This document shows, one piece after another, positions 47,057 to 50,946 of a stretch of 64,000 nucleotides of DNA. A program made the position numbers and the translations under genes. The DNA comes from Phycisphaerales bacterium (lineage in GTDB: Bacteria; Planctomycetota; Phycisphaerae; Phycisphaerales; SM1A02), in the NCBI GenBank assembly GCA_022446905.1, contig JAKVBT010000010.1, positions 1 to 64,000 of the forward strand. Reading direction: 5' to 3'. The notes beneath the pieces are model-generated. The model was given only the letters and a program-made list of their open reading frames with translations. It was not told the origin of the DNA and searched no databases. The stretch's first letter is position 1, and each line of letters opens with the position of its first letter.

Positions 47057-47317
47057 TCATCCGCCGCTGACAGGTGGGATTAGTGACAGTTCGTCATTTG
47101 GTTGCAGCATATAACCGGTGGTCACGTATTGATCTTGAATAGCCGTGGCGAGCACTGCACGCATCGTCAAGATGATGTCGTGTTGTTCGCTAAGGAGGTC
47201 CATGGCTGTCCTCACAGTTGCTGCTTCTGGAAGTTCCAGTCGCTCTGTTCGATACCCGATTCGATCAGCGAGCACCGCCCAATAGCGAACCGTGATGTGC
47301 ATGCACGGGTCGTTCAT
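47057..47317 (-). CDS. moaD: Molybdopterin synthase small subunit / MoaD-ThiS family sulfur carrier
   Basis: The protein has 86 residues with a ubiquitin-like fold pattern (I-T-V-R-Y-W-A-V-L-A-D-R-I-G) and ends in V-S-G-G, the diglycine that is thiocarboxylated. It donates sulfur to precursor Z in molybdopterin synthesis. I chose the ATG at 47317 because it overlaps the moeA stop as ATGA; a start at 47323 is also possible. It is the last gene of the run behind the cobalamin riboswitch. No moaE is in the window. Confidence 0.85.
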   Translation of the reverse strand: MNDPCMHITVRYWAVLADRIGYRTERLELPEAATVRTAMDLLSEQHDIILTMRAVLATAIQDQYVTTGYMLQPNDELSLIPPVSGG

Positions 47318-48495
47318 GGCCATGGGGTAAATCGTAAATCCGTACCTGCACGGATGACTTCATCTCGTGGTAGTTCCACGATTCCGTGTGTTCCAGCGGC
47401 ATGCGATAAATCTCCACTACCTTGCCAGTGGGGGATGGCAACTTTAGAGTCGCTGGTACGTCGTGAGGCCCGGAAAGCAGTCCGTCGCACATTGCCTTTT
47501 AGATCATGTTGAAGTGAGACTTTCTGCCACAGTGGGCCGGCAGGCTGATGAAGAAGTTGCCGCAGGATCGGCGCAAGAAACAGTGTGCCACATACAAGTG
47601 CCGATACAGGGTTGCCTGGAAGACACACGATCACACGATGGTCAAGCCGTCCAATCCGAACGGGTTTGCCGGGTTGCATGGCTACGCCAGTGATAGTCCA
47701 TTGGCATCCTGCTGCAGTAAGCGATTCGGCGACATGGTCTGCCCGTCCTGCGCTGATGCCACCAGTCGTAACGAGGACTTCAGCATCAGCGGCCTGCATG
47801 GCAGCGCGTGATTGTTCGGGTGTGTCTACAAGATGCTCGGTGCGCGTGATCACCCCACCACAACGACTGACTATTTCAGCGATCATCGGCCTGTTGGAAT
47901 TTCTGATTTGGTGCGTGGCAGGCAGCACGCCTTCCGATACCACTTCGTCACCACTGGTCAGGATATGGACGCGTGGTTGTTGTTGAACAACGAGGTTTTG
48001 CACGCCGACCATGGCTGCAAGGCCAAGTTCCGCAGTCCCGAGCAGGGTGCCAGCCTCCACAATCGTGGTTCCACTAGTTGCATCGGCTGCCTGTCGATGA
48101 ATGTTGGCATGGAGCGAGGGGGGCGAATCCATGTGAAATGTGACTGGGTTTTTCCGATCACTGAGTTCGTATGGAATGACGGCATCAAACGGCTCTGGTA
48201 CAGCGGCCCCAGTGGCGATCTCGATGCATGCGTCATTTGGGGGGATGTCTTGCAGCCTGTGACCAGCCTGCACTCCTGCATGTACGGGCATGCAGTGCCG
48301 CCAAGCGTGTGTGCACACGGCATATCCGTCCATGGCTGCGCGGTGAAATGGAGGAAGATCACGATCTGCGATGATCGGCTCAGCCAATACCCTGCCTGTG
48401 GCCTGATCAGTCGCTGTGGCTTGAGATGATGCAGTGGGACTGATGTCGTTCAGGATCTGTGTGAGCGCTTCGTCATACTGAGGGAGTGTGACCAT
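47314..48495 (-). CDS. moeA: Molybdopterin molybdenumtransferase
   Basis: The protein has 393 residues. D-L-P-P-F-H-R-A-A-M-D-G-Y-A-V near residue 45-59 is the MoeA signature. V-T-T-G-G-I-S-A-G-R-A-D-H-V (about residue 240-253) is the MoCF-domain molybdopterin-binding loop, and C-L-P-G-N-P-V-S-A-L lies near 290. It inserts molybdenum into adenylated molybdopterin in the cytoplasm. It starts 6 bases after the [2Fe-2S] protein gene and overlaps moaD by 4 bases, so it should be cotranscribed with both. Confidence 0.93.
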   Translation of the reverse strand: MVTLPQYDEALTQILNDISPTASSQATATDQATGRVLAEPIIADRDLPPFHRAAMDGYAVCTHAWRHCMPVHAGVQAGHRLQDIPPNDACIEIATGAAVPEPFDAVIPYELSDRKNPVTFHMDSPPSLHANIHRQAADATSGTTIVEAGTLLGTAELGLAAMVGVQNLVVQQQPRVHILTSGDEVVSEGVLPATHQIRNSNRPMIAEIVSRCGGVITRTEHLVDTPEQSRAAMQAADAEVLVTTGGISAGRADHVAESLTAAGCQWTITGVAMQPGKPVRIGRLDHRVIVCLPGNPVSALVCGTLFLAPILRQLLHQPAGPLWQKVSLQHDLKGNVRRTAFRASRRTSDSKVAIPHWQGSGDLSHAAGTHGIVELPRDEVIRAGTDLRFTPWP

Positions 48496-48501
48496 GCCTG
48501 C

Positions 48502-48768
48502 TCAGTGCTCGTCGGTTGGCATGATCATCGGAATGGTGGTTTCGCCGGTTGCGAGCATGTGGAGTAAGTATTGACGGCACATGCCACAACTGGAACCGCA
48601 GCACCACTCGATTTCAATGTCTTCCAGAGTGGTCTGTGTGCGCGTGTCGGCCCACTCCTTGATGGTCTCAAAAGGGACATCGTGACAGACGCAGCGATTC
48701 ACAGTGACGACTGGATGCGAACGCTTGGATGGAAGGAGTGGGTCAGACATCAGTAGAGAGAACTTCAC
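48502..48768 (-). CDS. BFD-like [2Fe-2S]-binding protein
   Basis: The protein has 88 residues. Four Cys in the arrangement C-V-C-H-D-V and C-C-G-S-S-C-G-M-C-R match the BFD-like [2Fe-2S] domain found in bacterioferritin-associated ferredoxins and as a module in NirB/NasB and other enzymes. The GTG at 48768 overlaps the stop of the upstream gene as GTGA; an ATG at 48750 is the alternative start and lacks a well-placed Shine-Dalgarno. moeA begins 6 bases downstream. It may supply electrons to, or sense iron for, an unknown partner. Confidence 0.8.
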   Translation of the reverse strand: MKFSLLMSDPLLPSKRSHPVVTVNRCVCHDVPFETIKEWADTRTQTTLEDIEIEWCCGSSCGMCRQYLLHMLATGETTIPMIMPTDEH

Positions 48769-49577
48769 CTCGGATCATAGGCCCGCGCGTCATCACTGAG
48801 AAATCCATTGCGTGGCCATTCCAGTTGACTGGTCATCCAGTTGGGTAAATCATCCCAGAGTTGGCCACGAAATGGATGGCGTCGCCTAGCGATATGTCCA
48901 TCTACCCAAGCGACATGGGTGACGCCATCAGGAAATGCTTGTCCTCCAGCATAGGCAGTTTCCATGCCACCAATATTGACCGGGCTACGCATAAATTTGT
49001 TGACCCCACCAAGCCGTCCGCCGAGCCCAAAGAGCGCAGTTGTGCCAGCACGTCTGCATTGTGCTCGCGTCAACCAACCAAGTCCACCTAGGTTTGGTTT
49101 CTCAATCACGAGATCCCATGCTCCCATGCCGGGCTGAGCAGTCCATGGCGAGGCGGCCTCAGCGGCGATAAATGCCACGTTGTAGTTGTAGCCGGTGACT
49201 GGATCGCCGTTCCAGCCGGCATGCTGATCTTGAGCAAGTGGGCATTGCAGAATGCCACGAGGATCAGTGGTGTCTGTCAATGCCCAGACTGGCCCTGGTT
49301 GCACCGTGCCATCTGGACGTTTCCACCAATCCCAAGCGCGTACATCGCCGGATTGGGCATCGTTGTTCAATCCATGTAAGAGTCCCGGCGGAAACATGCC
49401 CGATCGTTCGACGCTGAAGAGCGTCGCAGCGCGCGCGAGTTGTCGTAGATTCGATCCAGTATGCAGGTGCATGGCCTCTCGGTTGGTATGTCTCAAGCCT
49501 GGCAGGAGTATGGATACCAGTAGGGTCAGTATGGCGATGACGCAGGTCATTTCAATAATGGTCCAGCCGCGTCTCAT
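48765..49577 (-). CDS. Type II pseudopilin-like protein (DUF1559-like)
   Basis: The N-terminus G-W-T-I-I-E-M-T-C-V-I-A-I-L-T-L-L-V is a type IV prepilin cleavage/methylation signal with Glu at +5 and a hydrophobic helix. The body has a Planctomycete pseudopilin layout, with T-H-V-A-W-V-D-G-H-I near the end resembling the D-G motif of DUF1559 proteins, though the spaced His of that motif is missing. The ATG at 49577 overlaps the stop of the upstream surface-protein gene as ATGA, so translation is coupled to a B12-riboswitch-controlled gene. Possible role: assembly or export of that surface protein (inference). Confidence 0.8.
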   Translation of the reverse strand: MRRGWTIIEMTCVIAILTLLVSILLPGLRHTNREAMHLHTGSNLRQLARAATLFSVERSGMFPPGLLHGLNNDAQSGDVRAWDWWKRPDGTVQPGPVWALTDTTDPRGILQCPLAQDQHAGWNGDPVTGYNYNVAFIAAEAASPWTAQPGMGAWDLVIEKPNLGGLGWLTRAQCRRAGTTALFGLGGRLGGVNKFMRSPVNIGGMETAYAGGQAFPDGVTHVAWVDGHIARRRHPFRGQLWDDLPNWMTSQLEWPRNGFLSDDARAYDPR

Positions 49578-50449
49578 GTCCAATCCACCAGCAGCATTAG
49601 CAAGTCATCGACGCTGACTATGCCATCGTTGTTGAGATCGGCAGGGCTGGAGGTACTGCCCCAGGCAGCAAGCAGCATCAAGAGGTCATCAACCCCAACG
49701 ACTCCGTCGCCACTGAGATCACTCTGATGGAATGGTCCAGCATCAACAACCGCATCGATTTCCACTGCCAGCAAGGCATCATCACTCACATCAATGCGAA
49801 TCCACATCACTTCATCAAGTCCGAGTGGCTGCAAGTCAATACCGACGCCTCCAGCGCTGGTGTCATAGATTGTGAGGAGTTCGCTCCAATTCAAGCCAAT
49901 GGCATCGGATGGCAGTATGGCTGGATCCATGCCGCGTGTCGGATCCGTTGCGCTCGTGCCTGGCATCTCGTCATAGGGGCCTGCATCAAGCCAGGCCAAA
50001 GTCGGCCAAGGTGCATCGGCTTGGGCGTCTGGCACTTCAATCCAATCCACTCCATTGGAACTGACTGACACGGTCCCACCATCACCACCGAAGAAGCCGT
50101 CGCAGACGCCTGTTGGATACGCGCCATCTACACATGCAGGGTTGCCAAAAATGATGAAGTCAATGCCGTGGGCATTCACAGGGTCATCCTTGATCGGTTC
50201 ATCAAATCCAAGTATCAAGGCGCCACCGGCGCCAATCGAGACAATTTGATCTGGCATCCATGCGGGTGAAAATGGGGACACGACGGTTGGCCACTGTGTG
50301 CCATGGCCGGTCATGGTGGCCGGTGGCCCTAGGGTGGTCTCTGGCTGGTCATAGCCAGGGCTGCCACCAATACCACTGTCAAACAAGATCACAGCATCCG
50401 CCCAAGGATTTGCGGTGACTAAGGTGCATGCCAGGAGCAAAGTTGCCAT
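49574..50449 (-). CDS. Secreted surface protein with dockerin-like tail, under a cobalamin riboswitch
   Basis: The ATG at 50449 has GGAGG 7 bases upstream and begins a signal peptide (M-A-T-L-L-L-A-C-T-L-V-T-A). The 291-residue protein contains I-V-S-I-G-A-G-G-A-L-I-L-G-F-D-E-P-I and G-I-D-F-I-I-F-G-N-P, then V-S-V-S-S-N-G-V-D-W. From memory, this pattern belongs to extracellular beta-sandwich proteins found near vitamin B12 uptake genes. The last 50 residues are two dockerin-like repeats (S-G-D-G-V-V-G-V-D-D and N-N-D-G-I-V-S-V-D-D). The leader carries a cobalamin riboswitch. A role in capturing B12 at the surface is an inference, not shown. Confidence 0.75.
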   Translation of the reverse strand: MATLLLACTLVTANPWADAVILFDSGIGGSPGYDQPETTLGPPATMTGHGTQWPTVVSPFSPAWMPDQIVSIGAGGALILGFDEPIKDDPVNAHGIDFIIFGNPACVDGAYPTGVCDGFFGGDGGTVSVSSNGVDWIEVPDAQADAPWPTLAWLDAGPYDEMPGTSATDPTRGMDPAILPSDAIGLNWSELLTIYDTSAGGVGIDLQPLGLDEVMWIRIDVSDDALLAVEIDAVVDAGPFHQSDLSGDGVVGVDDLLMLLAAWGSTSSPADLNNDGIVSVDDLLMLLVDWT

Positions 50450-50456
50450 GGAAGAA

Positions 50457-50484
50457 CCTCCAAACCACCCAGTCGCGGGGTGGT
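50457..50484 (-). promoter_or_regulatory. Riboswitch expression platform: hairpin next to the Shine-Dalgarno
   Basis: On the minus strand a perfect 7-base-pair stem (50478-50484 with 50464-50470) with a 7-base loop CGCGACT ends 2 bases before GGAGG (50457-50461), which lies 7 bases from the ATG. A hairpin so close to the ribosome-binding site fits translational control. It could be the regulatory helix that docks with the aptamer loop. The docking itself is inference. Confidence 0.55.
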
Positions 50485-50589
50485 GCTCCGATCGCAGCAA
50501 GCTTGGCACGCACGTTTGAGTTGGCTGACAGGTCTCCGCACATGGAGCAGTGTGAAGGTGTCCTAGCAGCCCGTGAGCGCGCAAGGGCG

Positions 50590-50780
50590 GTGGCTGGCTG
50601 CGAGCAGGTCTTCCGGCTCCGGGACCATTCCGTCGGCCTTCCCATCCCAGCCATAATTGGTGGGACAGTGGTATTCCGATCGGCGGGGGCGTGCAGCATG
50701 GCTGCCTAAGCCCATCCCGTTACGGCGGCGCGTCCGCGGCGGTCTTTCACCGCACTTCCCTTGGCACCGCAGCCGAGGCC
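50590..50780 (-). ncRNA. Cobalamin riboswitch aptamer
   Basis: Read on the minus strand, all conserved elements of the RF00174 family appear in order. They are GGTGCC (50763-50768), GGGAA plus GGTGAAA (about 50745-50760), a C/G-rich arm with CCGCCGTAACGG, ACCACTG in place of GCCACTG (about 50666-50672), GGGAAGGC (50636-50643) and the B12 box GAGCCGGAAGACCTGC (about 50604-50619). The closing helix P1 is present: GGCTGC (50769-50774) pairs with GCAGCC (50596-50601). The whole 497-base stretch 50450-50946 between the two divergent genes holds no protein gene; its remainder is linker, platform and presumably the promoters. It faces the surface-protein gene at 49574-50449. Confidence 0.9.
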
Positions 50781-50946
50781 ATCCTACTGGATCACAGACC
50801 GCATGTGATCCCCTCAGGCCACGCATTCTGGTCCTGATTGGCTTGTCGAAGGCCCTCATGCGGGCTATCCTCGCCCGCTCGAAAGTCCACAGCTCAGGGC
50901 GTAACGTGATGCGTGGGGTGGACTGATTGACTTGGAGTTCCGCGAG

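Follow-up and report, generated by a model that had tools for sequence, protein, structure and literature searches.

A cobalamin riboswitch in a planctomycete precedes a BtuH-related exported protein and a coupled pseudopilin in an apparently TonB-free setting

Why would a planctomycete keep the gene for a secreted, dockerin-tailed protein behind a cobalamin riboswitch? Most of what is known about extracellular B12-binding proteins comes from gut Bacteroides, in which these proteins are linked to the TonB-dependent BtuB. The question is raised by a locus in a 64,000-nt stretch of the Phycisphaerales bacterium contig JAKVBT010000010.1 (assembly GCA_022446905.1), here called the window, and our literature search found nothing joining planctomycetes, cobalamin riboswitches and surface proteins. 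The best reading of the locus is a BtuH-related operon in a new, apparently TonB-free setting. Very probably it is a B12-repressed operon for exported corrinoid capture, with a BtuH-like domain and a coupled pseudopilin, that acts together with a second, transcobalamin-like protein under its own copy of the switch and with ABC import. Its aptamer and genes are:

50586–50810, minus strand: cobalamin riboswitch aptamer (RF00174, full model 1–189)
49574–50449, minus strand: exported 291-aa protein with a BtuH-like domain (49748–50413) and a GC-type dockerin tail (about 49577–49723)
48765–49577, minus strand: prepilin-type (pseudopilin-like) protein (TIGR02532 above cutoff; GspG, E 6e-5)
48502–48768, minus strand: small BFD-like [2Fe-2S] protein of the same apparent operon (below cutoff for PF04324 at E 1e-4; 18 relatives)
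47314–48495, minus strand: MoeA, same apparent operon (PF03453, E 5e-37; 23 relatives)
47057–47323, minus strand: MoaD-like protein, same apparent operon (PF02597, E 7e-11)

RF00174 aligns over its full length to the minus strand from 50810 to 50586, with 53.1 bits and E 2.2e-10 where the gathering cutoff is 31.5 bits. A search of the 2.58-Mb genome turned up only one other element of this kind. The preliminary description had placed a cobalamin aptamer at 50590–50780 on this strand; the aptamer is real, and the extent given was about 30 nt short at the 5′ end, missing the 5′ strand of P1/P2. A promoter scan returned no promoter-like site, a point against the operon reading.

We then asked what such riboswitches precede elsewhere. 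RF00174 was searched in 101 relatives, and 63 matches were fetched, spread over 48 genomes in the window's family. Two HMMs served to class the gene that comes next, one made from the window protein and the other from the protein that follows the genome's second riboswitch. All 63 precede either the window protein's family (45) or the second secreted PEP-CTERM protein (18). Starting instead from homologs of the window protein, we observe that of 76 usable loci 70 have a B12 box no more than 700 nt upstream, versus 41 of 857 control windows; this homolog collection is separate from the riboswitch-first set, with species overlap between the two. At more distant homolog loci a full RF00174 match lies in the 3-kb stretch in 10 of 14 cases, and in three of the remaining four the same contig carries an aptamer about 1.4–1.6 kb away from the gene. 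The riboswitch–gene pair singled out in the preliminary description is thus kept through the family and beyond. That all 63 matches precede one or the other of two secreted genes, together with the covariation described below for H3 and the long-range helix, places this feature beyond chance.

Aptamer loop L5 and the leader that leads from the aptamer to the first gene provide the following elements:

50729–50735, minus strand: aptamer loop L5, GGACGCG, placed by the RF00174 alignment
50569–50588, minus strand: H1, a P13-like hairpin whose loop contains GCGCG and could pair with L5
50544–50549, minus strand: loop UGCUCC, 5′ arm of a long-range helix with 50484–50489 (covarying helix 2 in relatives)
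50484–50489, minus strand: GGAGCA, 3′ arm of the long-range helix, abutting H3
50464–50484, minus strand: H3, a 7-bp hairpin with loop CGCGACU, the second L5-complementary loop
50457–50461, minus strand: Shine-Dalgarno GGAGG, 7 nt from the ATG at 50449, read from the sequence

H1 directly follows the aptamer and H3 directly precedes the Shine-Dalgarno, and the CGCG loops of both are complementary to L5. A hairpin 2 bases from the Shine-Dalgarno had been noted before, and it is there, as a 21-nt hairpin at 50484–50464 followed by GGAGG at 50461–50457. The L5 sequence GGACGCG is kept in nearly all relatives, and leaders with at least two CGCG hairpins make up 33 of 43, compared with 16% in shuffles. 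From 23 leaders, picked for having H3 and given to RNAalifold with no structure supplied, the program returned H1, H3 and the long-range helix between them. Six of the seven H3 pairs show changes on both sides, with 99.4% of alignment cells paired. For the three helices combined 93.6% of cells pair, and 47 cells change on both sides versus a shuffled mean of 14.5 and at most 9 in slid controls; H1 is the weakest of the three. In the window itself the long-range helix is seen as complementarity alone, as the window row is misaligned there in the 23-leader alignment. A small mid-leader hairpin was left uncounted because its register shifts between genera. Riboswitches of the PEP-CTERM genes in the genus have GGUGCC as L5 and loops with CAC, a matched change that was judged by eye.

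These elements resemble the kissing-loop (L5–L13) corrinoid riboswitches (PMC10653944) in the aptamer, in a P13-type hairpin complementary to L5 and in a hairpin near the ribosome site. They differ in that L5 reads ACGCG here and not the published consensus UCCCG (PMC10653944), and in having two tandem L5-complementary hairpins plus a long-range helix. Judged by their complementary loops, H1 and H3 would provide the L5–L13 kissing loop to the expression platform, and by analogy with the published switches we infer that the kissing-loop hairpins repress at translation initiation. The arrangement of tandem hairpins and covarying long-range helix, observed at 50464–50588 and in 23 relatives' leaders, looks like an undescribed cobalamin expression platform.

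The first gene lies at the coordinates previously described; it runs from an ATG at 50449 to 49574 and encodes 291 aa. The product was also correctly called a beta-rich exported protein, having an N-terminal hydrophobic segment and an all-beta domain. The term dockerin-tailed is fair, given a weak tail match (NCBIfam GC-type dockerin, E 2.7e-6, just below cutoff; Pfam Dockerin_1, E 0.07) and about 90 dockerin-like tails elsewhere in the genome. Against Pfam the N-terminal domain has no match, the weak dockerin tail being the only one in the protein. The homolog at L063:3491-4228 carries a PEP-CTERM-type tail in place of the dockerin, and the sorting tails therefore appear interchangeable.

The relationship of this protein to known families was sought through its fold and through profile comparisons. 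An AlphaFold model built on 43 homologs has a pLDDT of 95.7, and its top Foldseek match in the PDB is 8blw_B, from the BtuB1–BtuG1 complex of Bacteroides (E 2e-5, probability 1.00, with a TM score of 0.35 that denotes a loose superposition); further matches are mostly CBM32/discoidin folds. The C-terminal domain of BtuG1 is homologous to BtuH2 (PMC10404256), and the B12-binding domain of BtuH2 has modest DALI similarity to the CBM32 of AlyQ (PMC8941943), which is also among the Foldseek matches of the window protein. On the model, then, the protein is predicted to share the BtuH fold. At the sequence level a narrow profile of the window family found nothing in the PDB, or dockerin/calmodulin tails alone, with no direct BtuH match, so the link had to be made through more distant homologs from planctomycetes. 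Here hhalign joined the window family to the planctomycete intermediates at 99.4% (E 7e-22, 198 columns), and one intermediate matches 8blw_B (the BtuG1 H-domain) at E 1e-14 and BtuH2 (7biz) at E 1e-11. A profile mixing the window family and the intermediates aligned to the whole H-domain (8blw_B 393–660, E 7e-13), and it is this alignment that picks out the H-domain within 8blw_B. These profile links place the window protein, transitively, in the BtuH domain superfamily.

Some of the B12 contacts of BtuH2 could be placed on the window family (chain numbering is offset by 100 from the published one, Trp577-Leu578 being W477-L478, counted by hand from alignments). Asn399, which contacts the B12 phosphate (PMC8941943), aligns with the N of an FGN motif that is invariant in 43 of 43 homologs (A1 position 91). 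Tyr510 falls on the invariant Y183, within a poorly aligned stretch, and Gln333 and Trp577 are not kept in the window family. Compared with BtuH and the BtuG1 H-domain of B. thetaiotaomicron (7BIZ, 8BLW; PMC8941943, PMC10404256), the window protein shares the domain by transitive homology, a cobalamin-riboswitch operon, export, the phosphate-contact Asn and a host that uses B12 and shows no CobS. It differs in not being a lipoprotein, in its dockerin or PEP-CTERM tail and its pseudopilin partner, in the other B12 contacts, which are not kept, and in that no BtuB, BtuG or TonB was detected with it. Co-occurrence with btuB is a habit of the gut loci and not a defining trait of BtuH. BtuJ/DUF4465 proteins (PMC12751083, PMC13398666) are likewise exported beta-jellyrolls behind cobalamin riboswitches, many with C-terminal sorting motifs; membership there was rejected, since no DUF4465 match was seen in any member. 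BtuK (PMC12751083) was considered as the nearest relative, and the sequence link was run against BtuH, not BtuK. In 7 of 43 members weak matches to the Leptospira LIC_13355 family turned up, a family whose paper gives no B12 link.

The second riboswitch of the genome leads to another secreted protein:

L003:7100-7326: second cobalamin riboswitch, RF00174, 51.4 bits

It lies 31 nt from the gene of a secreted protein that is 175 aa long, ends in a PEP-CTERM-like tail and has no Pfam match and no meaningful match among PDB sequences. A model of this protein (pLDDT 83) gave as best structure matches transcobalamin 7qbe, 3u7z (which we take to be a DUF4430-type protein) and the transcobalamin beta domain 5no0, at probabilities of 0.99–1.00. 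Intrinsic factor ranks sixth, and the resemblance to transcobalamin is one of fold alone (E 7e-3). The 175-aa protein is accordingly predicted to have a transcobalamin beta/DUF4430 fold, the fold of 7qbe, 5no0 and 3u7z that it shares with intrinsic factor. Unlike transcobalamin it is bacterial and secreted, with a PEP-CTERM tail, no Pfam match and no alpha-barrel domain. Outside the window's family, two loci of another family of the same class (L221 and L222) encode a single protein that contains the 175-aa-type domain (E 1.5e-15), the window domain (E 1.4e-39) and a dockerin-like tail. In both, a cobalamin riboswitch of 68–74 bits is directly upstream of the fusion gene, and in L222 a homolog of the window pilin is directly downstream (E 7e-71). 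Such a fusion, behind the riboswitch and next to the pilin, joins both proteins and the pilin in a single function.

The pilin is the most constant of the downstream genes. Its ATG shares bases with the TGA that ends the BtuH-like gene (ATGA), and homologs are found downstream at 71 of 80 loci. The BFD-like, MoeA and MoaD genes are kept in fewer relatives, whose genes were located by HMM search of six frames. At 47057–48768 these three share the apparent operon with the cobalamin-controlled gene; MoeA is probably not part of the B12 function, and MoeA and MoaD do not fit the B12-capture reading.

Does the host need the vitamin? The genome encodes the B12-dependent (adenosylcobalamin-type) ribonucleotide reductase NrdJ at 560 bits and a 1230-aa ORF of MetH size with a B12-binding domain. 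CobS was not found in any of the 21 genomes searched, so the host is likely a B12 auxotroph, as judged from its gene content. TonB plug and TonB_C domains were not found in the genome or in the eight genus members examined, though the same searches find them in relatives; in a draft genome of 96% completeness such a negative is no proof, but it recurs across the genus. With no TonB plug domain found in genome or genus, no btuB was seen in an operon with the window gene. The genome encodes FecCD permeases together with a Peripla_BP_2 protein and an ATPase, ABC importers whose families are not B12-specific, and it has four secretin domains.

Put together, the riboswitch would sense intracellular cobalamin, and in times of plenty the operon is most likely repressed. 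Its first product would be an exported corrinoid-capture protein made of a BtuH-like B12-binding domain and a dockerin-type sorting tail, and the second switch copy would control the transcobalamin-beta-like PEP-CTERM protein. Upon B12 shortage both would be exported and hold corrinoids at or outside the cell surface. The translationally coupled pseudopilin may help to position the captured vitamin, to move it or to pass it on, and its uptake would then fall to an ABC importer of the BtuF/BtuC type. Capture by the exported BtuH-like and transcobalamin-like proteins is well supported, with binding predicted; we infer B12 binding by the window protein, its surface location and the role of the pilin. 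The earlier guess of a B12-catching surface protein akin to those of B12-uptake loci gains support, as a predicted role, from the fold, the profile–profile links and the conserved riboswitch pair. New with respect to that guess are the transcobalamin-like second regulon member, the co-transcribed pseudopilin and the apparent absence of TonB. Uptake by the pseudopilus is hypothetical: it is conceivable, if doubtful, that B12 crosses the outer membrane without TonB-dependent transport, being captured by the exported proteins and then drawn inward or presented by a dedicated riboswitch-controlled pseudopilus that acts through a secretin. The locus points to a dedicated, unstudied way of catching B12 outside the cell in B12-needing planctomycetes. 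Families that carry no Pfam name thereby acquire a likely function, the BtuH superfamily now reaches into another phylum, and B12 import by TonB-less diderms becomes a directly testable question.

Other functions can be imagined for an exported jelly-roll. The window protein could be an F5/8 (CBM32)-type carbohydrate or surface adhesin on a pilus-like structure, with B12 reporting metabolic state and no corrinoid bound. Most of the other Foldseek matches being CBM32/discoidin domains would suit an adhesin, as would the loss of Gln333 and Trp577 and the occurrence of dockerin tails and pseudopilin partners in surface adhesion. We nevertheless consider it improbable, given the sequence-level link to BtuH domains and the control by the same riboswitch of a transcobalamin-like protein and a two-domain fusion; BtuH itself, moreover, is modestly AlyQ CBM32-like in DALI (PMC8941943).

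Alternatively, corrinoids could be bound not for surface capture but to be salvaged, remodelled or delivered within the envelope or in vesicles. BtuJ acts on vesicles in B. theta (PMC12751083), and chemistry could be hinted at by the operon's small [2Fe-2S] protein. The exchange of dockerin for PEP-CTERM tails, both of the surface-sorting type, and the coupled pseudopilin make this very improbable. It is scarcely credible that the aptamer is a leader in decay, or a constitutive one, without any effect on regulation: the 53.1 bits are moderate and L5 departs from consensus, but the aptamer is kept in 48 genomes, the platform covaries and the L5 change is matched by the hairpin loops. Exported corrinoid capture under B12 repression is the reading we retain.

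Among homologs we also made several minor observations. In the genus, several signal peptides lack N-terminal basic residues, including that at 50396–50449, e.g. MATLLLACTLVTA, and other genera differ. Public MAGs labelled Caulobacteraceae, Bacteroidia and Limnohabitans (L128, L151, L163) contain contigs with the planctomycete window gene, a probable case of mislabelling or contamination. At five loci from other families of the order (L013, L015, L021, L022, L027) the gene after the riboswitch encodes a secreted protein that is beta-propeller-like and bears a dockerin or PEP-CTERM tail. At two of these, L021 and L022, a dock-like protein starts right after the beta-propeller-like protein, a possible BtuG–BtuH-like pair.
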